From a virus, in the IMG/VR virus record IMGVR_UViG_3300031359_000002, positions 1-20,359 of that record: DNA of 20,359 bases; one strand, given 5' to 3'. Shown one piece after another: positions 3,614 to 20,359 of the stretch; within the stretch, counting starts at the first letter, position 1; each line of letters begins with the position of its first letter. The position numbers and the translations under genes were made by a program. The notes beneath the pieces were generated by a model that did no database searches, was not told where the DNA came from, and saw only the letters and a list, made by a program, of their open reading frames with translations.

Positions 3614-3923
3614 AGACGTTCTTTATATTGTAGGCTGGTTCGCCTCAGTCATCGGCATATTTTTGGCATTTAGAAATGAGTTATACAATCTAAAAAATCA
3701 GCAGAAAAAAGAGCATAGCATTATCTGGCAGGAAGGTGGAAGGTTAAATCTCGTCGATCACAAAGCTTGTAGGGAGTACCGGAATCTGATCTGGCAAAAC
3801 ATGCGCAAGAGCGATAGTGCTATCGATAGAATGTCGGCCAGGTTGGAGGGCATGAACGAAAATATAATCCGAATACTGGTAAAGCTGGAGCTAAATGGAA
3901 AAGGAAATAAAAATAAAATGTAA
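3597..3923 (+). CDS. Membrane-anchored coiled-coil protein
   Basis: 108 residues. Residues 6-25 (KDVLYIVGWFASVIGIFLAF) form one hydrophobic membrane segment, followed by a charged helical region with heptad-like spacing to the end (RMSARLEGMNENIIRILVKLEL). The plan, one N-terminal anchor plus a coiled coil, is common among small phage proteins of unknown role. A holin or spanin role cannot be argued from this alone, since there is no lysis cassette nearby. Its ATG overlaps the end of the previous gene and its end overlaps the next gene by 29 bases. Confidence 0.6.
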   Translation: MTFTIKDVLYIVGWFASVIGIFLAFRNELYNLKNQQKKEHSIIWQEGGRLNLVDHKACREYRNLIWQNMRKSDSAIDRMSARLEGMNENIIRILVKLELNGKGNKNKM

Positions 3924-4551
3924 AGCCGCAGACGGTATGGCGTTAGACGAGCTTTACGAGTTTCAGGGCGAGCTAAAAACCATCTCGGACGATGGGCTTG
4001 AAAAGCTTAAGAAATCGATTTTAAAGTATGGTTTTTCGTTTCCGGTATTCGTATGGGAAAACAAAATTTTGGATGGTCACCAGCGGCTAAAGGCCATAAG
4101 ACAGCTTGTAGAGCAAGGTTATAAAATCAAGGATAATAAGCTTCCGGTGGTGCGGATCGAGGCGAAAAATGAAAAAGATGCCGCTGAAAAGCTGCTATTG
4201 ATAAACTCGCGTTATGCTAAGATTGATCAGGAAGGATTCCAGGTATTTACTTTTGATTTTAATATCGATATTCCCGAAATAGGCAATTTTATCGATATTC
4301 CGGAAATCGTTATCGGTGAATTAGATGATGATACCGTTGATCCTAATGCCGAATGGGATGGAATGCCTGAATTTAACCAGGAAGACGATGCTCCGTATAA
4401 AAGTTTAATCGTACATTTTGAAAACGAAGATTATTTTAAAGATTTTTGTCTTTTAATCAAACAAGTTGTCAGCGATGATGCTAAATATATTTATCATCCT
4501 AAAAAAATTCGAGATGATGTTAAGTCGGTAGCTTACAAAGATGAATCCTAA
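3895..4551 (+). CDS. ParB-like (ParB/Srx fold) domain protein
   Basis: 218 residues. The N-terminal 110 residues form a ParB-like domain: LKKSILKYGFSFPVFVW followed by the box ILDGHQRLKA (residues 58-67, with D60, H62 and R64) and LLLINSRYAKI. A linker leads to a C-terminal module beginning EWDGMPEFNQEDDAPYKSLIVHFE (about 153-176), which I recognise from phage DNA-modification proteins where the same module follows ParB-like domains. The typical fused methyltransferase is absent. The next gene, overlapping by 11 bases, is a glycosyltransferase of the TET-associated type, so a role in DNA base modification is favoured over plasmid partition; that is inference. GGAG lies four bases before the ATG. 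Confidence 0.75.
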   Translation: MEKEIKIKCKAADGMALDELYEFQGELKTISDDGLEKLKKSILKYGFSFPVFVWENKILDGHQRLKAIRQLVEQGYKIKDNKLPVVRIEAKNEKDAAEKLLLINSRYAKIDQEGFQVFTFDFNIDIPEIGNFIDIPEIVIGELDDDTVDPNAEWDGMPEFNQEDDAPYKSLIVHFENEDYFKDFCLLIKQVVSDDAKYIYHPKKIRDDVKSVAYKDES

Positions 4552-5415
4552 ATATCCGATCCATATCCCTTCTAAAGGGCGTTATGAAAAACGCCTTACG
4601 AGCGACTATTTATCAATAATGAAGGTAAAGCATCATTTAATCATCGAAGATCAGGAATATAAAAAATACAAGCTTTACACTAAGGATAATCCATTCGTAA
4701 AGCTGGTTATTTTAGATAAAAAATATCAAAAAAATTATGATGCTTGCTGTAAATTAAAAGATAATGAAAGCCGTGGATCCGGTCCGGCAAGGAATTTTAT
4801 CTGGGATTATAGTATCTCAAACGGCTTTGATTATCATTGGATAATGGATGATAATATCAGGAATTTTATGCGCTTAAATAATAATAAGCGTCAATATGTA
4901 AGAGACGGTACGATTTTCAAATGTATGGAAGATTTCATCAAACGTTATGAAAATGTAGCGATGGGCGGACCTAATTATGTAATGTTCGTTCCCGATAGAA
5001 AAAAAAACCGCCGTTTACATTTAATACCAGGATATATTCCTGTAATTTTATCAGAAACGATGTTCCATTTCGCTGGCGCGGACGATATAACGAAGATACC
5101 GATTTATCGATTAGAATGATGAAATCCGGATGGTGTACCATACTTTTTAATGCCTTTTTACAACATAAGTTAGCGACGCAAGAAATGAAAGGCGGTAATA
5201 CGGACGAGATATATGCCAACGGAACATTGGAAAAATCAAAAATGATAGCGAAGCTACATCCTGATTGTACTAAGGTTGTCTGGAGATTTGGCCGCTGGCA
5301 TCATTATACTGATTACAGAAAATTTAGGAAAATAAAGCTTAAGAAAAGAAAAGATATAGAAATAGAGCCGGGAGTAAATGATTACGGTATGAAACTTGTA
5401 AAAGTCGTAAGTTAG
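4541..5415 (+). CDS. TET-associated-type glycosyltransferase, split by a -1 frameshift
   Basis: One gene in two frames. The first frame gives IHIPSKGRYEKR, GSGPARNFIWDYS (79-91) and the metal-binding-like WIMDDN (100-105), then runs off into nonsense ending at 5119. Shifting -1 at the A run 4999-5007 continues as PPFTFNTRIYSCNFIRND, RWRGRYNEDTDLSIR, and LFNAFLQHKLATQEMKGGNTDE to the TAG at 5413-5415. The combined product of about 291 residues has the motifs and length I expect of TAGT enzymes, which transfer sugars to hydroxylated bases in DNA. The heptamer A_AAA_AAC at 5002-5008 is in phase for -1 ribosomal slippage. So it is either a programmed frameshift or transcriptional slippage, or one base lost in a homopolymer (mutation or sequencing error). 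No TET/JBP oxygenase is in the window. Confidence 0.8.
5002..5008 (+). promoter_or_regulatory. A_AAA_AAC slippery heptamer in glycosyltransferase gene
   Basis: In the frame of the first half, codons AGA AAA AAA AAC end in the classical X_XXY_YYZ form A_AAA_AAC. A -1 slip here joins the two homologous halves with no loss of family motifs. It lies within a nine-A run, so RNA polymerase slippage is an alternative mechanism. I see no clear stimulatory hairpin in the next 30 bases. Confidence 0.5.
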
Positions 5416-8281: not shown

Positions 8282-10366
8282 ATGCCCAGTACCGACGTAC
8301 ATCAAACAGCTTTAGCTCAATTTGACCGTATCCAAGATGCCGTTTGGGAAGAGCGCGAACAGTGCCTTTCAGACCGGCGTTTTTATTCTATTTCCGGCGC
8401 GCAGTGGGAAGGTGATCTCGGGAAACAATTTGAAAACCGCCCGCGTTTTGAGGTCAACAAAGTACACCTGTCTGTTATCCGTATCATCAACGAATACCGC
8501 AACAACCGCATCACGGTCGATTTTGTCGCAAAAGACGGTAAGGAAGACAGCCTGGCCGACACCTGCGACGGTAGATACAGGGCCGACGAACAGGACAGCA
8601 ACGGACAGGACGCCTACGATAACGCCTTTGAAGAGGCCGTCGGGGGCGGTATCGGAGCATGGCGGCTTATCACGTGCTACGAAGACGACGAGGACGACGA
8701 AAACGAATACCAGCGCATCGCCATCGAACCTATTTATGATGCCGACAGCTCCGTTTTTTTCGATCTCAACAGCAAAAAGCAGGACAAAAGCGATGCTAAA
8801 CACTGCTTTGTGATCAGATCGATTTCACGCGACGCTTATATCGAAGAGTACGACGACGACCCGGTCGGCTGGACCAAGGACATCGACAGCAGCGAATTTG
8901 ACTGGGTCACCCCGGACGTCGTCTATATCGCCGAATATTACGTCATCGAAAAAATACCCAAAACAATCGAGATATGGGAAAGCATAGACGGCGAGGAAAG
9001 CCGCTATAGTGAAGATGATTTCGAGCACGACGAAAATCTGTTTGAAATGCTGACCGCCACCGGAAGCCACAAGATAAGAGACAAGAAGGTCAAAAAAAAC
9101 AAAGTTCATAAATATATTCTAAACGGCAACCAGATCATCGAAGACTGCGGCTATATCGCCGGTAACTGTATCCCCGTCGTTCCGGTTTACGGAAAACGTT
9201 GGTTTATCGACAATATAGAGCGTTGTATGGGGCATGTACGCCTTTGTAAAGACGCCCAGCGCCTTAAAAACATGCAGCTATCAAAACTAGGCGAGATCAG
9301 CGCGCTGTCCACGATCGAAAAGCCGATTTTAACGCCGGAGCAGATCGCCGGTCATGAAGACATGTGGGCGGATGATAATATCGAAAATTACCCCTATCTA
9401 TTGACCAACCCCGTTATCGATATGAACGGCAACATCCAGCCGGCCGGTCCGCTGGGTTATACCAAAGTCCCGCAGATCCCGCCCGCCATGGGGGCCCTGC
9501 TTCAAATTACCGAACAGGACATGCAGGATATGCTGGGAAATCAGCAGGCCGGAGAAGAGATCACTCCGAATGTTTCCGGAAAAGCTATCGAGCTGATCCA
9601 AAACAAGCTGGACATGCAGAGTTTTATCTATATGTCCAATATGTCCAAAGCCGTTAAAAGATCCGGCGAAATCTGGCTGTCCATGGCCAAGGAAGTCTAC
9701 GTAGAGGAAGATCGGAACTTAAAAATCGTAACGCCTCAAAAAGATATCGATTCCGTCAAACTAATGGAACCGACGGTAAACGAAGAGAGCGGGGCGGTCG
9801 AGTATAAAAATGATTTTTCACGCGCCAAATTTGATTTAACGGTTTCAGTCGGTCCCTCCACCGCTTCCAAGCGCGCCGCTACAGTAAGGGCTTTGACCGG
9901 AATGCTACAAATGACGGCCGACCCGGCCGACCAGGCCGTAATCACGGGTTTGGCGATGATGAATATGGAAGGCGAAGGGATCGATGAAATCAGACAATAC
10001 TATCGTAAAAAACTAATCAATATGGGAGCCATCGAGCCCAACGAAGAAGAGGCCAAAGAGATCCAGGCGCGCCAGCAAGCCCAGGCTCAGCAGCCCGATC
10101 CGAATCAGCAGTATTTGGCGGCGCTTTCCGCCGAGAGCATGGCCAAGGCCGAAAAAGCCAAGGCGGATACGCAATTGACCGCCATGAAAGCCCAGCAATC
10201 TCAGGTCGATACGATTCATACCTCCGCAAAAGCGGAAGAGACCCGGGCCAAAACCGCTCAGATAATGTCCGAGATGGACACTAAATCCCAACGCGCCGTC
10301 GTTGAGAATATAAAAGATTTAACTCAAATCGAACAGCAAAAGGCCCCCACTGCGCCCAGCCAGTGA
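8282..10366 (+). CDS. P22-like portal protein
   Basis: 694 residues (P22 gp1 has 725). The N-terminus has the familiar DRRFYSISGAQWEGDLGKQF, then RPRFEVNKVHLSVIRIINEYRNNR, and the middle has IEPIYDADSSVFFDLNSKKQDKSDAKH, all typical of the P22_portal family. The C-terminal 95 residues are Ala/Gln/Lys-rich and helical (about 600-690), matching the barrel region of P22 portal. It forms the dodecameric ring at the head vertex through which DNA is pumped and on which gp4-like and gp10-like proteins assemble. GGGGG lies just before the ATG. It is followed directly by the scaffold gene. Confidence 0.93.
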   Translation: MPSTDVHQTALAQFDRIQDAVWEEREQCLSDRRFYSISGAQWEGDLGKQFENRPRFEVNKVHLSVIRIINEYRNNRITVDFVAKDGKEDSLADTCDGRYRADEQDSNGQDAYDNAFEEAVGGGIGAWRLITCYEDDEDDENEYQRIAIEPIYDADSSVFFDLNSKKQDKSDAKHCFVIRSISRDAYIEEYDDDPVGWTKDIDSSEFDWVTPDVVYIAEYYVIEKIPKTIEIWESIDGEESRYSEDDFEHDENLFEMLTATGSHKIRDKKVKKNKVHKYILNGNQIIEDCGYIAGNCIPVVPVYGKRWFIDNIERCMGHVRLCKDAQRLKNMQLSKLGEISALSTIEKPILTPEQIAGHEDMWADDNIENYPYLLTNPVIDMNGNIQPAGPLGYTKVPQIPPAMGALLQITEQDMQDMLGNQQAGEEITPNVSGKAIELIQNKLDMQSFIYMSNMSKAVKRSGEIWLSMAKEVYVEEDRNLKIVTPQKDIDSVKLMEPTVNEESGAVEYKNDFSRAKFDLTVSVGPSTASKRAATVRALTGMLQMTADPADQAVITGLAMMNMEGEGIDEIRQYYRKKLINMGAIEPNEEEAKEIQARQQAQAQQPDPNQQYLAALSAESMAKAEKAKADTQLTAMKAQQSQVDTIHTSAKAEETRAKTAQIMSEMDTKSQRAVVENIKDLTQIEQQKAPTAPSQ

Positions 10367-11291: not shown

Positions 11292-12545
11292 ATGAGTGAC
11301 TTTAGCAAAGAGGAAAGAGTCGCATTCGAAGATATTTTAGAAGGGTTTGAGGACGCCCTGGTCATTTCCCGCAATGTCTCTAAGTACAATGTCGGAGATA
11401 CCATGAGCGAGCGGTCCAACGACATCATTTGGCGGCCCATCCCGTATATCGGCGTTACATACGACGGAACCGACCAGACCGCTAATTTTCAGGACTATAC
11501 CCAACTTTCCGTACCGGCCGCGCTTGGTTACGAAAAGAGTTTTCCCTGGATCATGACATCAAAAGAGCTGCGCGACAAATTACAGGAAAAGCGGTTGGGC
11601 GAAGCGGGCTATCAAAAGCTTGCCAGCGATATCAATGTGGCTGTCACCAATGTCGCCAGCTTACAGGGTACCTTGGTCGTCGATGTAGCCTCCGCCGCCA
11701 CCGGGTTTGACGATATCGCCGAATATGAAGCCATCATGAACGAAAGCGGCGTACCCCAAATGAATCGTTATGCCGCCCTGTCTACCCGTGATTATAACAA
11801 TATGGCCTCAAATTTAGCCGATCGCGGGACGGTTCAGGACAAAGTAAAGACCGCCTACGAAAAGGCTCGCATCGGGCAGGTAGCCAGCTTTGATACCTAT
11901 AAATTGGATTATGCCTATCGTTTGGCCGCCGGAACCGCGACCGGAATTACCGTCAACGGCGCCAATCAATATTACACGCCTAAAGCCACTAGCACGGCCG
12001 CGACGACCGGTGAAACAGGCAACGTGGACAATCGCTATCAAACTCTGGCAATTGCCGCTACGGGCACCCTGGCCGCCGGGGATTGTTTTACTATCGACGA
12101 CGTTTACAATGTCCATCAGGTTACTAAACAGTCCACCGGTCAGCTCAAAACTTTCCGCGTCATTACCGGAGGCGGAACCGGAAATATCGTTATTTCACCT
12201 CCTATAATCAGCGGAGACGGAGGTACCGACGCCGAACTTCAATACCAGAATGTCGATTCCACGCCGGTTGATACCGCAGTCATTACGTTGCTTAACATTG
12301 CCGATGCCTACGTGAATCCTTTTTGGTATCGTGACAGTATTGAAATCAGGCCGGGGCGCTATGCCGTACCGACCGGATCGGGCGCGGCCGTCATGCGGGG
12401 AACCACCGACAACGGTATAGAAGTCGTCTGGCAAAAATTTTACGACATCAACACCATGAAGATTAAATACCGTCTTGATTGTACGTTCGGCGTAACTTGC
12501 CTTGCTCCTGAAATGACGGGTATCGGAATTTTTGGTCAAACTTAA
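11292..12545 (+). CDS. P22-like major coat protein
   Basis: 417 residues (P22 gp5 has 430). Recognisable pieces are the N-terminal VAFEDILEGFEDALVISRNVS, the block DTMSERSNDIIWRPIPYI, the segment VPAALGYEKSFPWIMTSKELRDK, and the end KYRLDCTFGVTCLAPEMTGIGI. These match the P22 coat family with an HK97-type fold. The central segment from about 205 to 330 would hold the inserted I-domain found in P22 coat. AAAGGA precedes the ATG. It forms the icosahedral shell after assembly on the scaffold. Confidence 0.92.
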   Translation: MSDFSKEERVAFEDILEGFEDALVISRNVSKYNVGDTMSERSNDIIWRPIPYIGVTYDGTDQTANFQDYTQLSVPAALGYEKSFPWIMTSKELRDKLQEKRLGEAGYQKLASDINVAVTNVASLQGTLVVDVASAATGFDDIAEYEAIMNESGVPQMNRYAALSTRDYNNMASNLADRGTVQDKVKTAYEKARIGQVASFDTYKLDYAYRLAAGTATGITVNGANQYYTPKATSTAATTGETGNVDNRYQTLAIAATGTLAAGDCFTIDDVYNVHQVTKQSTGQLKTFRVITGGGTGNIVISPPIISGDGGTDAELQYQNVDSTPVDTAVITLLNIADAYVNPFWYRDSIEIRPGRYAVPTGSGAAVMRGTTDNGIEVVWQKFYDINTMKIKYRLDCTFGVTCLAPEMTGIGIFGQT

Positions 12546-13971: not shown

Positions 13972-15546
13972 ATGACTCAAGTAATCATCTACCCCTACGG
14001 TACCAAAAAAGTCACCGTACCCGTCGGTCAGTATATCATTATCGCGGCCTACGAAGGCGACGCCAAAGTCTATTTAGGCGTATCCGATCCCAACATGCCG
14101 ACCGTTTATAGCTATTATTCGACCGTCACCAATACGGAAAGCACATTGGGGACCTGGTCCAGCGCCCAGGACGTTCGCATCGATGCCGGGCCCGGGAACA
14201 TATACTACAATGTCGGCGCGAGCCCGACCATCAGTTTACCCACGCCAAACACCCTGGCTGGTACCGGTGATCCTTTTGCCGTAAACGGAGAGGCCGGAAC
14301 ACAAGGCGGGGCTGTTAACGTAACCGGAGGAACCTCTTCTACTTCCGCTAACGCCGGGGGAGCCGTTGCAATAACCGGAGGAACACCCGGAGCGACCGGA
14401 GCCGGTGGAGCGGCTTCTATTACCGGAGGAGCCGGTGGTTCTACATCGGGAACCGGGGGCGCATCCTCTGTTACCGGAGGTGCGGGAACGGCCGGAAACG
14501 CAACCGGAGGTGCCGCTTCAGTTACCGGTGGAGCGGGTCAGGGAACCGGTACAGGTGGCGCGACTAGTATGACTGGCGGCGCATCGGGGGGAGGCGCAAC
14601 GGGTACAGGCGGCGCAAGCTCCATTACCGGAGGAGCGGCAGCCAGCACAAACGGAGCCGGTGGAGCGGTATCAACTACCGGTGGAGCCGGAGCAGGTACC
14701 GGGGCGGGCGGCGCAATATCTTCTATAGGAGGCGCAGCAGGCGCAACTGGAACCGGGGGCGCGGTAACCATTACATCGGGTGCCGGCGGAGCGACATCGG
14801 GAGTATCAGGGGCCGTCGCCGTATCATCGGGCTCGACAACCGCCGCGAGCGCTACCGGGGCTGTTAGTATCGGTAGTGGCGCAGGAGCCGCAAGCGCAGC
14901 CGCTACAGCCGGAGGTGCTTCGGGAACGACTACCGTATCGACCGGGGCGGGCGGCGCAAATACCGGTGGTGCTACCGGAGAAGCCGGAGGTGCCGGCGGC
15001 GCTATGACCGTCAGCACCGGAGCCGGTGGCGCCACCAACAGCGCTGGAGCCCATGATGGAGGCGCCGGTGGTGATTTAGGCATCACGGCCGGAGACGGTG
15101 GCGCTGCATCGGCTGGAACCGGTGACGGTGGGGACGGTGGAACGATAACCTTAACTCCCGGAACCGGGGGCGCTACGACTGGCGGAACCGTTGGGGCGAT
15201 CGGTCAGGTAAAAGCGGCCGGCTTATTCGCCTTAAATACCGCCCAGGTGCTCGACATGTCCGATGCCACCGTACAGTTGACAATCGATCCGGGTTCTACG
15301 GCCGGTACGGTTTTAACTTCCAATATTATGATGGTAGACCCTAATAGCTCTGGTGCCGGTGAGGATCTGGAATTACCGCCGGAAGCGGACGTACCCGGGG
15401 TTGTGCTCTGGATTTACAACACCGGCGGAGAAAACATAGTCGTAAAAGATGATTCCGGGGTAACGACCGTCGATACGGTTGCTACCACGGAGTTCGGTTT
15501 TTTCTTTTGTGACGGAACCGCCTGGCACGGGATGAATGTAGCTTAA
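13972..15546 (+). CDS. Gly/Ala-repeat virion protein, 524 aa
   Basis: Three parts. Residues 1-100 are a beta domain (QVIIYPYGTKKVTVPVGQYIIIAA) of a type found in phage structural proteins. Residues about 112-405 are a repeat domain with consensus GGAxSxTGGAGxxTG, unit 16-18 residues: nine regular copies to about residue 262, then degenerate ones rich in SG, VSTGAGG and GDGG. Residues 410-524 are a second beta domain (LFALNTAQVLDMSD; VVLWIYNTGG; FFFCDGTAWHGM). The repeat domain may form a beta-solenoid or polyglycine-II rod, so this may be a fibre or surface decoration. It has a good AAGGAG. It is inserted between the gp4-like and gp10-like genes, which in P22 are adjacent. An antisense frame inside it is a shadow of the GC-rich repeat. 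Confidence 0.8.
   Translation: MTQVIIYPYGTKKVTVPVGQYIIIAAYEGDAKVYLGVSDPNMPTVYSYYSTVTNTESTLGTWSSAQDVRIDAGPGNIYYNVGASPTISLPTPNTLAGTGDPFAVNGEAGTQGGAVNVTGGTSSTSANAGGAVAITGGTPGATGAGGAASITGGAGGSTSGTGGASSVTGGAGTAGNATGGAASVTGGAGQGTGTGGATSMTGGASGGGATGTGGASSITGGAAASTNGAGGAVSTTGGAGAGTGAGGAISSIGGAAGATGTGGAVTITSGAGGATSGVSGAVAVSSGSTTAASATGAVSIGSGAGAASAAATAGGASGTTTVSTGAGGANTGGATGEAGGAGGAMTVSTGAGGATNSAGAHDGGAGGDLGITAGDGGAASAGTGDGGDGGTITLTPGTGGATTGGTVGAIGQVKAAGLFALNTAQVLDMSDATVQLTIDPGSTAGTVLTSNIMMVDPNSSGAGEDLELPPEADVPGVVLWIYNTGGENIVVKDDSGVTTVDTVATTEFGFFFCDGTAWHGMNVA
14305..15186 (+). repeat. Coding repeat array, 48-54 base unit
   Basis: The DNA behind the Gly/Ala repeats shows recurring ACCGGAGG, GCCGGTGGAGC and ACCGGGGGCGC strings in a 16-18 codon period. 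Copies differ mainly at third codon positions, so protein sequence appears kept while DNA has drifted, which argues for selection on the repeat rather than very recent duplication. Confidence 0.8.
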
Positions 15547-15548
15547 AT

Positions 15549-16931
15549 ATGCAGATACCGATTGTGCACGGCATTTATGCCGATGAAGAATCGAATTTTA
15601 GAACTTTTTATCCAAGAAACCTGGAGCCGGTTGCGTTAAACAGCGGCATTAGCCAAGGATATCTGCGACCGGCTGAAGGGGTGGCAAATTTTGAAAACTC
15701 AATTACATTAAACGGCGCCGATAGGTCGTCTATCAACTGGCTGGATGTATGTTTTAGAGTGATATCGGGAAGTCTTTATAAAATTTTTGACGACGGTTCA
15801 TACGAAGAGATCGATACGGTTGCCGGTTCTACTCAATGTACCATGGATTATTCTTTTGATTATTTGGCGATCGCCGCGGACAAAAAATTATATCTATATG
15901 ACGGCACAACGCTACAGCAGAACGTCGATGCGGATTTAGGCGATGTTTTGGACGTCGTTTATATCGACGGGTATTTTATGACCACTGATGGCTCATTCTT
16001 GGTGATCACGGATTTAGGCGATCCTTTTTCGGTTGGAACCGATAAATACGGATCATCGGAAGTCGATCCCGATCCGATCGTCGGCCTATTAAAAGTTCAT
16101 AACGAAATATTTGCCCTAAACCGTTACACGATTGAAGCGTTTTATAATAAGGGCGCGCCGGTCTTTCCGTTTGCAAGGATCGAAGGAAGCCGCGTGAATC
16201 GCGGGCTTATCGGAACTCATGCCAAATGCGAGTTTAAAGGAGCCATCGCGTTTATGGGTGGCGGCCGCAATGAGCCCACATCGATTTGGATCGCCTCGAA
16301 CGCCGACACTAAAAAAATAGCCACCAGGGAAATTGATCAAATACTTTTGTCTTATACGGAAGTAGAATTAAGCAAGACGGTTTTTGAAAAACGAATCGAC
16401 AAAAACCATGAGCAAATATGGGTCCGGCTGATCGATCAGATATTGATTTATGATGAAAAGACGTCGGAAGCGGCTCAAACCCCCGTTTGGTTTATTAGGA
16501 ATACCGGCCCTAAAAATCTATGCTGGGCCTATAATAAATGGATTGTCGGAAATGATGACGGTCTCGTCGGCTATCTGGACGAGTCGATTTCAACCGTTTG
16601 GGATGTGAGCGTCGAGTGGGAATTTCAGACCAATATTATTTATAACGAAAGCAAGGGTGCCATTGTCCATGAATTGGAATTAGTAGGTTTACCGGGAAGG
16701 GTGACGCTGGGAAACGACCCGACCGTCTGGACGTCATATAGTCTCGACGGAGAAACCTGGTCGAATGAACGCATGATTAATATCGGTCTACAGGGAAATC
16801 GTTTAAAAAGAATGGTCTGGCTCAGCCAAGGGGGTTTTAGAAACTATCGCATTCAACGTTTTAGAGGAAACAGCGATAGCCATTTATCGATCGCACGGCT
16901 GGAGGCCAGGATAGAAGGATTGGAATATTGA
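15549..16931 (+). CDS. P22 gp10-like packaged DNA stabilisation protein
   Basis: 460 residues (P22 gp10 has 472). It has a beta-propeller-like plan with repeated YDGTTLQQNVDADLGDVLDVVYIDGYFMTTDG, VGLLKVHNEIFALNRYTIEAFYNKGAPVFPFARIEGSRVNRGLIG, AIAFMGGGRNEPTSIW and a C-terminal SLDGETWSNERMINIGLQGNRLKRMVW with RRF-like end (RIQRFRGNS). These segments identify the Phage_stabilise family. It binds below gp4 in the neck, plugs the channel and receives the tail needle and tailspike. It is followed by TTGA overlap to the next gene. The tail needle (gp26) is not in this window. Confidence 0.92.
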   Translation: MQIPIVHGIYADEESNFRTFYPRNLEPVALNSGISQGYLRPAEGVANFENSITLNGADRSSINWLDVCFRVISGSLYKIFDDGSYEEIDTVAGSTQCTMDYSFDYLAIAADKKLYLYDGTTLQQNVDADLGDVLDVVYIDGYFMTTDGSFLVITDLGDPFSVGTDKYGSSEVDPDPIVGLLKVHNEIFALNRYTIEAFYNKGAPVFPFARIEGSRVNRGLIGTHAKCEFKGAIAFMGGGRNEPTSIWIASNADTKKIATREIDQILLSYTEVELSKTVFEKRIDKNHEQIWVRLIDQILIYDEKTSEAAQTPVWFIRNTGPKNLCWAYNKWIVGNDDGLVGYLDESISTVWDVSVEWEFQTNIIYNESKGAIVHELELVGLPGRVTLGNDPTVWTSYSLDGETWSNERMINIGLQGNRLKRMVWLSQGGFRNYRIQRFRGNSDSHLSIARLEARIEGLEY

Positions 16932-18900: not shown

Positions 18901-19236
18901 ATGGCGGTAACCATTACTAATATTATCCCGCGTAAAAACCCGACCATAAACTTTGAGATCCAGTATGTCGCTAGTAACTGTACGACCGTGATCGATAAGT
19001 TCACCGTAACCAATGTAACCGCCAATAATATTATTTTCGGCGTTCATCTGGTTCCGAGCGGAGGGAGCAACAATAATACGAATTTAGTGCTCTATCCTAA
19101 AGCGATTGCGAGGTACACCACCTATACCTGTCCTGAAATCGTCGGACAGGTGCTTTTAAACGGCGGGTTTATCGTCACTTACGCCAGCGCTGCCACCAGC
19201 CTTGTCTTAAGCGCTAGCGGAAGGGAGATTACATAA
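18901..19236 (+). CDS. Small beta-sandwich virion protein, copy two
   Basis: 111 residues. Strand-rich with VIDKFTVTNVTANNIIFGVHLVPSGGSNNNTN, LYPKAIARYTTYTCPEIVGQVLLNGGFIVTYASAATSLVLSASGREI. The ending SxLVLSASGREI is shared by a family of small phage structural proteins. AAGGAG lies ten bases upstream of the ATG. It begins one base after the previous stop. Similar plan to the gene at 17209, likely an accessory of the 453-residue protein. Confidence 0.65.
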   Translation: MAVTITNIIPRKNPTINFEIQYVASNCTTVIDKFTVTNVTANNIIFGVHLVPSGGSNNNTNLVLYPKAIARYTTYTCPEIVGQVLLNGGFIVTYASAATSLVLSASGREIT

Positions 19237-19237
19237 G

Positions 19238-19699
19238 ATGGCTTTACTATCACCTATAAATTTGCATCTATCAAGGTCCCAACAGATACTACAAGGAGGG
19301 GATCAGTTAGATGAGATGCGCAGAATATTGCTGGAGCGCTCGACTACACCGGCTGCTCAAGCGGAATTGGACAGGCTAAACCCCGCCCAAAACTTACAAG
19401 GATTACGGCCTCCGGAGCCGCAACAGCCGATGTATTCACAGCCGGCTCCGCCCTATCAACAGCAGTATCCGATGTCTCAGCCCTATCAGCAGCAACCGGC
19501 GCCGCCTTATCAACCACAACCGCAACAACCGATGGCTCCAATGGGGCAACAGCCGTCATTGAATCAGCCGATACAGCCGCCTTATCAGCAAATGAACGGC
19601 TTAAGCATACAGCCTACTAATAACGATCCTTATATGATGCCGTCATATTACAACCAACCGATGATAGGAAATATGGGAGGAAATCAACTGTTATGGTAG
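19238..19699 (+). CDS. Pro/Gln-rich low-complexity protein
   Basis: 153 residues. The N-terminal 50 residues are helical (LSRSQQILQGGDQLDEMRRILLERSTTPAAQAELDRL). The remainder is a disordered Pro/Gln/Tyr tract with repeated PPYQQ, QPYQQQ and PQQPM strings (about 58-120), then an Asn/Met/Tyr tail. AAGGGAG precedes the ATG. The position in the structural block and the coupling to the next gene (overlap of seven bases) suggest a virion or assembly protein. No family recognised. Confidence 0.65.
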   Translation: MALLSPINLHLSRSQQILQGGDQLDEMRRILLERSTTPAAQAELDRLNPAQNLQGLRPPEPQQPMYSQPAPPYQQQYPMSQPYQQQPAPPYQPQPQQPMAPMGQQPSLNQPIQPPYQQMNGLSIQPTNNDPYMMPSYYNQPMIGNMGGNQLLW

Positions 19700-20359
19700 A
19701 CGAGATCGAACTGGTTGAAAAAATAAACAGCCTTCCGAAAATTCATTGTCCGATTTACCACCATTTCGCGCCGGGTGTTTATTTGCGTGAAATGCACATA
19801 CCGCAAGGTACCGTTGCTATCGGCCATTACCATAAAACCCGCCATTTTTGCGTATTGTCTAAAGGAGTAGCAATATTTATCGGGAAAAACAAAAAGCCCG
19901 AAATGATCACCGGACCGACCACGTTTATCGCCGATCCGGGCCATAAAGTCGTTTTTGCCGCCAGCGATATCATCGTCCAGAACATCCACCCCAACCCCGA
20001 TGATATCACCGACCAGGATGAGCTTGAGCAGATATTTATCGATCAATCAAATTATTTTACTACACTGCTAAGCGATAACGGCGACCATCTACAAGACCGC
20101 ATTGATTTTGAAGCGCTAAATTATGTTCAGCCCGAATGGGAATCTTATATTGATTTACCGCAGCCGTACAAATCCGTCATCACCATTCGAAAATCGGGTA
20201 TTCATGGAAAAGGAATATTTTCAACCTGTCCCTGGGGTTCCGATGAATATATCGGTCCGTTTATTACGCGCGGTAAAGTAACTGAATTGGCCAGGTATAT
20301 GAATCATTCCGTCGATCCCAACGCAAAGTTAAGCATCATCAATCAAGATGAAGTCATTG
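19693..20359 (+). CDS. Cupin-SET domain fusion, 3' end outside window
   Basis: 222 residues visible. Residues 19-100 form a cupin-like domain: CPIYHHFAPGVYLREMHIP, GTVAIGHYHKTRHFCVLSKG (39-58, with H45, H47, H51 as likely metal ligands) and PTTFIADPGHKVVF. After a linker, residues 161-222 start a SET domain: SVITIRKSGIHGKGIF (GxGxF-like at 172-176) and ARYMNHSVDPNA (200-211, the NHS motif of SET lysine methyltransferases). The rest of SET, including the post-NHS catalytic tyrosine, is outside. Phages carry both domains, usually apart; the join here is unusual. Substrate unknown. Coupled to the gene before it, so late expression is expected. Confidence 0.8.
   Translation, partial: MVDEIELVEKINSLPKIHCPIYHHFAPGVYLREMHIPQGTVAIGHYHKTRHFCVLSKGVAIFIGKNKKPEMITGPTTFIADPGHKVVFAASDIIVQNIHPNPDDITDQDELEQIFIDQSNYFTTLLSDNGDHLQDRIDFEALNYVQPEWESYIDLPQPYKSVITIRKSGIHGKGIFSTCPWGSDEYIGPFITRGKVTELARYMNHSVDPNAKLSIINQDEVI

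Follow-up and report, generated by a model that had tools for sequence, protein, structure and literature searches.

The cupin-SET gene and its surroundings in the window

The stretch of DNA analysed here, hereafter the window, is a virus fragment of 20,359 bases in total, derived from an environmental, short-tailed phage. Homologs of TerL, the P22-like portal, the P22 coat, gp4 and gp10 mark the phage as P22-like and bear out the virion-block location given in the preliminary description. At the 3' end lies a gene in which a cupin-fold domain is followed by a SET domain. The features concerned are as follows, all on the plus strand.

8282-10366 (+): P22-like portal (profile match)
11292-12545 (+): P22-like coat protein (profile match)
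15549-16931 (+): homolog of the gp10/Hc3 head-closure (packaged-DNA stabilisation) protein, upstream neighbour of the slot (profile matches)
18901-19236 (+): 111-aa protein whose family frequently lies immediately 5' of cupin-SET (100/127 copies adjacent)
19238-19699 (+): Pro/Gln-rich, lysine-free ORF of 153 aa that follows the 111-aa protein and overlaps the cupin-SET start with its end
19693-20358 (+): cupin-SET ORF of 222 codons, truncated at the 3' end of the contig (about 266 aa at full length in ortholog L002)
19732-20058 (+): cupin-fold (double-stranded beta-helix) domain, residues ~14-122 (PHROG 12032; AlphaFold2 model; Z 11.1 to HP0902)
19825-19845 (+): H45-x-H47-x3-H51, cupin motif 1 with His replacing the canonical Glu (HHH in 13/65 SET-linked cupins)
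20059-20154 (+): variable linker, residues 123-154 (dN/dS 0.18)
20155-20358 (+): N-terminal two-thirds of the SET domain, ended by the contig (Pfam, family matches, structure; dN/dS 0.015)
~20206-20220 (+): SET GxG motif, GKGIF (G172 and G174 invariant, 91/91)
~20302-20310 (+): SET NHS motif (N204 and H205 invariant, 91/91)

The frame runs uninterrupted from the ATG at 19693 until it leaves the contig at 20358, and H45/H47/H51, GKGIF and NHS are all found within it, confirming that a cupin and a SET domain share one frame. The ORF is matched strongly by PHROG 34170 (E=6.9e-30) and its N-terminal part by PHROG 12032. Against Pfam SET (PF00856), the fragment scores only 17.1 bits, under the cut-off of 22.4, because the domain is cut by the contig end; the full-length ortholog, at 30.9 bits, exceeds the cut-off. 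This ortholog, L002:6001-6798, is a protein of 266 aa with 94% identity to that of the window. It extends the frame by 44 residues, with EITIDY followed by a stop, and the missing end that it supplies includes the E-x-T-x-D-Y catalytic motif with Tyr245. The downstream sequence called for by the preliminary description thus completes the SET domain, and no frame break between the domains was encountered in relatives, the fused ORF being unbroken in 80/80 loci fetched by the cupin-SET profile search. Between the window and L002, dN/dS is 0.043 overall, and the values of 0.023 for the cupin and 0.015 for SET imply that both domains are under strong purifying selection.

Other genes in the window may also be recorded. 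An ORF at 4541-5119 (+) matches a TET-associated glycosyltransferase (TAGT, PF20691, E 4.4e-25) at profile positions 1-145 of 205 only; the next ORF, in another frame at 5116-5415 (+), may hold the rest, a possible frame break. It is adjoined by a weakly DndB-like ORF at 3895-4551, and the pair suggests DNA hypermodification. At 13972-15546 (+) a Gly/Ala/Thr-rich repeat protein with GGAxS/TGGA units is encoded; it measures 524 aa in the window against 590 aa in L002 (21-1793), a close relative, which implies that repeat number changes quickly.

Structure and conservation of the two domains

The SET domain is small and intact-looking, and all catalytic and cofactor motifs are present, namely GxG, NHS and a catalytic motif of the ELxxDY type. 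Residues G172, G174, N204, H205 and Y245 were invariant in 91/91 non-redundant SETs (<70% identity) covering all arrangements. Within 50 non-redundant members, S168, G172, G174, T197, N204, H205, E240 and Y245 were invariant, although the relatives were retrieved by short motifs including RYxNH, which makes the conservation of RYxNH alone partly circular; GxG was in none of the retrieval patterns and Tyr245 was absent from those of the first scan. All 46 aligned family members, the window fragment included, match Pfam SET at E<=0.01. The AlphaFold2 model built from 46 sequences (pLDDT 86.5, pTM 0.81) reproduces both folds: residues 155-246 superpose on the SET domain of MLL1 with Z 11.8 and 1.7 A over 81 residues (VIA-align), and residues 17-102 align to the cupin HP0902 with Z 11.1, corresponding to a double-stranded beta-helix.

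It can be observed that the SET domain is compact, with about 28 residues from GxG to NH and a conserved GxRTPxGR loop at the place of SET-I. Many window-type fusions carry an added GCxGG loop directly before the strand of the catalytic Tyr. In the alignment and the model, the SET-I segment is reduced from the classical insert and no post-SET was seen; substrate binding must therefore differ from that of classical enzymes. The viral enzyme vSET is likewise without a post-SET, which is not required of the SET superfamily. Judged from its motifs, the domain is predicted to be an active SAM-dependent protein-lysine methyltransferase.

For the cupin, a Foldseek search returned matches to TM1459 and KdgF. 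The motifs of metal cupins, G(X)5HXH(X)3-4E(X)6G and PXG(X)2H(X)3N, are absent: His51 takes the place of Glu, the motif-2 His is lacking, and a hydrophobic residue stands where motif 2 would supply the canonical fourth ligand. The N-terminal domain is consequently classed by cupin fold only and not as a metal-dependent cupin. The three histidines of the preliminary description hold for the window but not as a family feature, with HHH found by motif match in just 13/65 non-redundant SET-linked cupins. Residue 45 varies among H, A and K, and residue 47 between H and Q. Among SET-linked cupins, H-Q-H is the most frequent triad (23), HQQ was counted in 7, and AHY, AHH and KHH also occur; in cupin-only members, it is mostly K-H-H (37).

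Gene arrangements and genomic position among relatives

At least 575 related stretches were found in IMG/VR by the cupin-SET profile search, and the cupin/SET pair is kept by hundreds of related bacteriophage contigs. A search of NCBIfam gave no match, nor did a viral scan for cupin-only relatives with L008 as query. In the survey of 335 loci with separate cupin and SET profiles (ARRANGEMENTS), 227 were cupin-SET fusions, 80 held the cupin alone and a few held SET only, counts inflated by near-identical contigs, many of which recur between scans, and by pattern-based retrieval. The reverse fusion, SET-cupin, was intact in 8 loci representing six distinct contigs (L110, L117, L122, L132, L225, L231). 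A further reverse fusion, L222:3505-4372, has a frame break inside SET near NH, either an assembly error or recent decay; its relatives L225 and L231 are intact. As adjacent genes, SET precedes the cupin in 4 loci (L149, L264, L259, L261) and follows it in L095, while in L270 and L276, again with the cupin first, ~1.2 kb separates the two. The gene pairs of L095 and L149 overlap by ATGA, as coupled genes typically do. The window fusion is thus one form of a recurrent cupin/SET partnership with at least four gene arrangements, and joining in several different orders speaks for the two domains working together.

A linked cupin was present in 145/153 loci from SET-only queries; five of the other eight are truncated at the beginning of their contigs, and the remainder come from two contigs, L134 (identical to L300) and L328. 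Stand-alone SET members came from other scans (L097, L098, L108). That of Pelagibacter phage Kolga EXVC016S (L108:4965-5273) is a mini-SET of ~100 aa, distant from any cupin and not within an ejection cluster. The cupin tree requires a minimum of 5 switches between linkage to SET and occurrence alone, but only 1 is forced by strongly supported branches, the cupin and SET trees being poorly resolved.

Among 215 testable fused loci, meaning those with enough sequence for the next gene to be called, the next gene encodes a P22 gp7-like ejection protein in 183. Cupin-only homologs occupy the same slot in Vibrio P22-like phages, where they precede gp7-like genes, and in Krylovirinae, where the genes that follow are T7 gp14-like. 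In phiKMV there is no gene in the slot, showing that the cupin is optional. The link with ejection genes is not universal, since the modules of zth2-2 (L006) and L276 sit between terminase and portal. Near the cupin/SET genes of these two, and likewise between terminase and portal, are a GNAT acetyltransferase with a Pfam match (L006:13081-13569) and a GNAT-looking ORF without one (L276:3104-3511). In another relative (L005, MW202557.1), an antisense CDS annotated 'contryphan-vn-tryptophan' (3809-4375, minus strand) lies just upstream and slightly overlaps the start of the cupin-SET gene, which is unannotated in the public record.

Sequence comparison of the adjacent gp7-like ejection protein revealed no lysine conserved specifically in SET phages, and a SET-specific lysine of this protein was dropped as candidate substrate; 12/73 SET-phage proteins lack Lys among their first 60 residues. 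Upstream, 116/123 loci that hold the 111-aa protein family are cupin-SET fusions, and a Lys in its IDKxT motif is found in 19/33 non-redundant copies. This protein is a possible partner of cupin-SET; its enrichment upstream may reflect phage lineage only.

Proposed role and comparison with known systems

The reading preferred here, with a probability of about 45%, is that of an active mini-SET lysine methyltransferase whose cupin attaches it to the tail/ejection assembly; the likeliest targets are tail or ejection proteins of the phage. In this scheme, the P22-like podophage would make the two-domain protein late in infection. Without catalysing a reaction itself, the cupin may serve the tail/ejection complex as a docking or assembly module and bring the enzyme to its target, and the SET domain would methylate lysines in a SAM-dependent manner. 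At least one phage tail or ejection protein would most likely be modified during assembly. The wider proposition is more tentative: that a widespread group of podophages has a dedicated cupin and mini-SET methyltransferase modifying its own tail/ejection machinery, with DNA delivery dependent on lysine methylation.

Alternatively, the protein could be packaged and ejected with the DNA, SET then methylating host proteins of the nucleoid, the envelope or defence soon after infection begins. The gene usually stands directly before the first ejection-protein gene, and bacterial and PBCV-1 SET enzymes are established to act on the chromatin of other organisms (PMC10117894). However, nothing points to packaging, the role suggested by cupin-only homologs is one in assembly or structure, and some relatives adjoin terminase and portal instead, so that this alternative is considered unlikely. 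Lower still stands the suggestion that the cupin forms an appendage or adhesin on the tail, which SET modifies with consequences for host recognition. Every member is matched by PHROG 12032 'short tail fiber protein' (46/46 aligned members) and by PHROG 24280 'tail fiber adhesin', but the tail-fiber label is annotation only; for ORF43 of phiAP1, experimental validation of such an annotation is noted as absent (PMC8703784). Moreover, the gene precedes ejection genes and varies little, unlike receptor-binding genes, which tend to be variable and located elsewhere.

SET folds with little activity exist, and the shortened SET-I region and missing post-SET would fit a catalytically dead module serving a structural or peptide-binding purpose. 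Absolute conservation of Tyr245, the NH pair and GxG across large divergence and all arrangements makes this improbable, because a purely structural role would not need them invariant. Least credible is a cupin that switches the methyltransferase on or off by binding metal or a small ligand, as the preliminary description had suggested might be the case: although the HxHx3H triad is intact in the window and 13/65 SET-linked cupins, like that of the 4-His cupin TM1459, a general switch is not borne out by the variable triad and the missing motif-2 His.

Returning to the proposed methyltransferase acting on the phage's own tail or ejection proteins, its significance is that SET enzymes are best known from eukaryotes, where they write chromatin marks, and from bacteria and viruses, whose effectors imitate those writers. 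In these bacteriophages, a SET subfamily that looks active is tied to a cupin, and its gene mostly opens the DNA-ejection cluster. If it is active, protein-lysine methylation would be a step in building or using the phage injection machine. The cultured phages Rhodoferax P26218 and Pseudoalteromonas PH1 give direct access to the question.

Among open-licence literature, no papers on phage SET or cupin-SET proteins were found, and the genome paper of Rhodoferax phage P26218 does not mention its cupin-SET protein. The nearest homologs at family level are those of PHROG 34170, with the same architecture, including P26218 gp30 and a relative that UniProt lists as 'SET domain containing protein' (A0A6J5PTS6). 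That PHROG is an automatic catalogue entry with function listed as unknown, and its make-up, slot and arrangements are not described in the searched papers. PHROG 12032 cupins, such as gp38 of Sphaerotilus phage vB_SnaP-R1, are homologous and occupy the same slot before a gp14-like ejection gene, but are without a SET domain. T7 gp13 (PF11090) and P22 gp14 (DUF2824) share the position immediately before the first ejection gene and have no sequence relation to cupin or SET. Both had been taken, as a presumption, for GNAT-type modifiers of the same slot; the positions were confirmed, but Pfam gives just the two families named, and the predicted model of P22 gp14 (pLDDT 42) was too poor for a structure search.

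By structure, the best match is the SET domain of MLL1/KMT2A, with which the motifs are shared; the 81 aligned residues span ~124 in MLL1, the phage domain being without most of SET-I. The closest viral counterpart is vSET of PBCV-1, an H3K27 methyltransferase (PDB 1n3j/3kma) and likewise a minimal viral SET, matched by profile at E 1.9e-4 and by VIA at Z 10.1 over 82 residues. It is a stand-alone protein of a eukaryotic virus and acts on host histones, whereas the phage SET is fused to a cupin and is shorter between GxG and NH.
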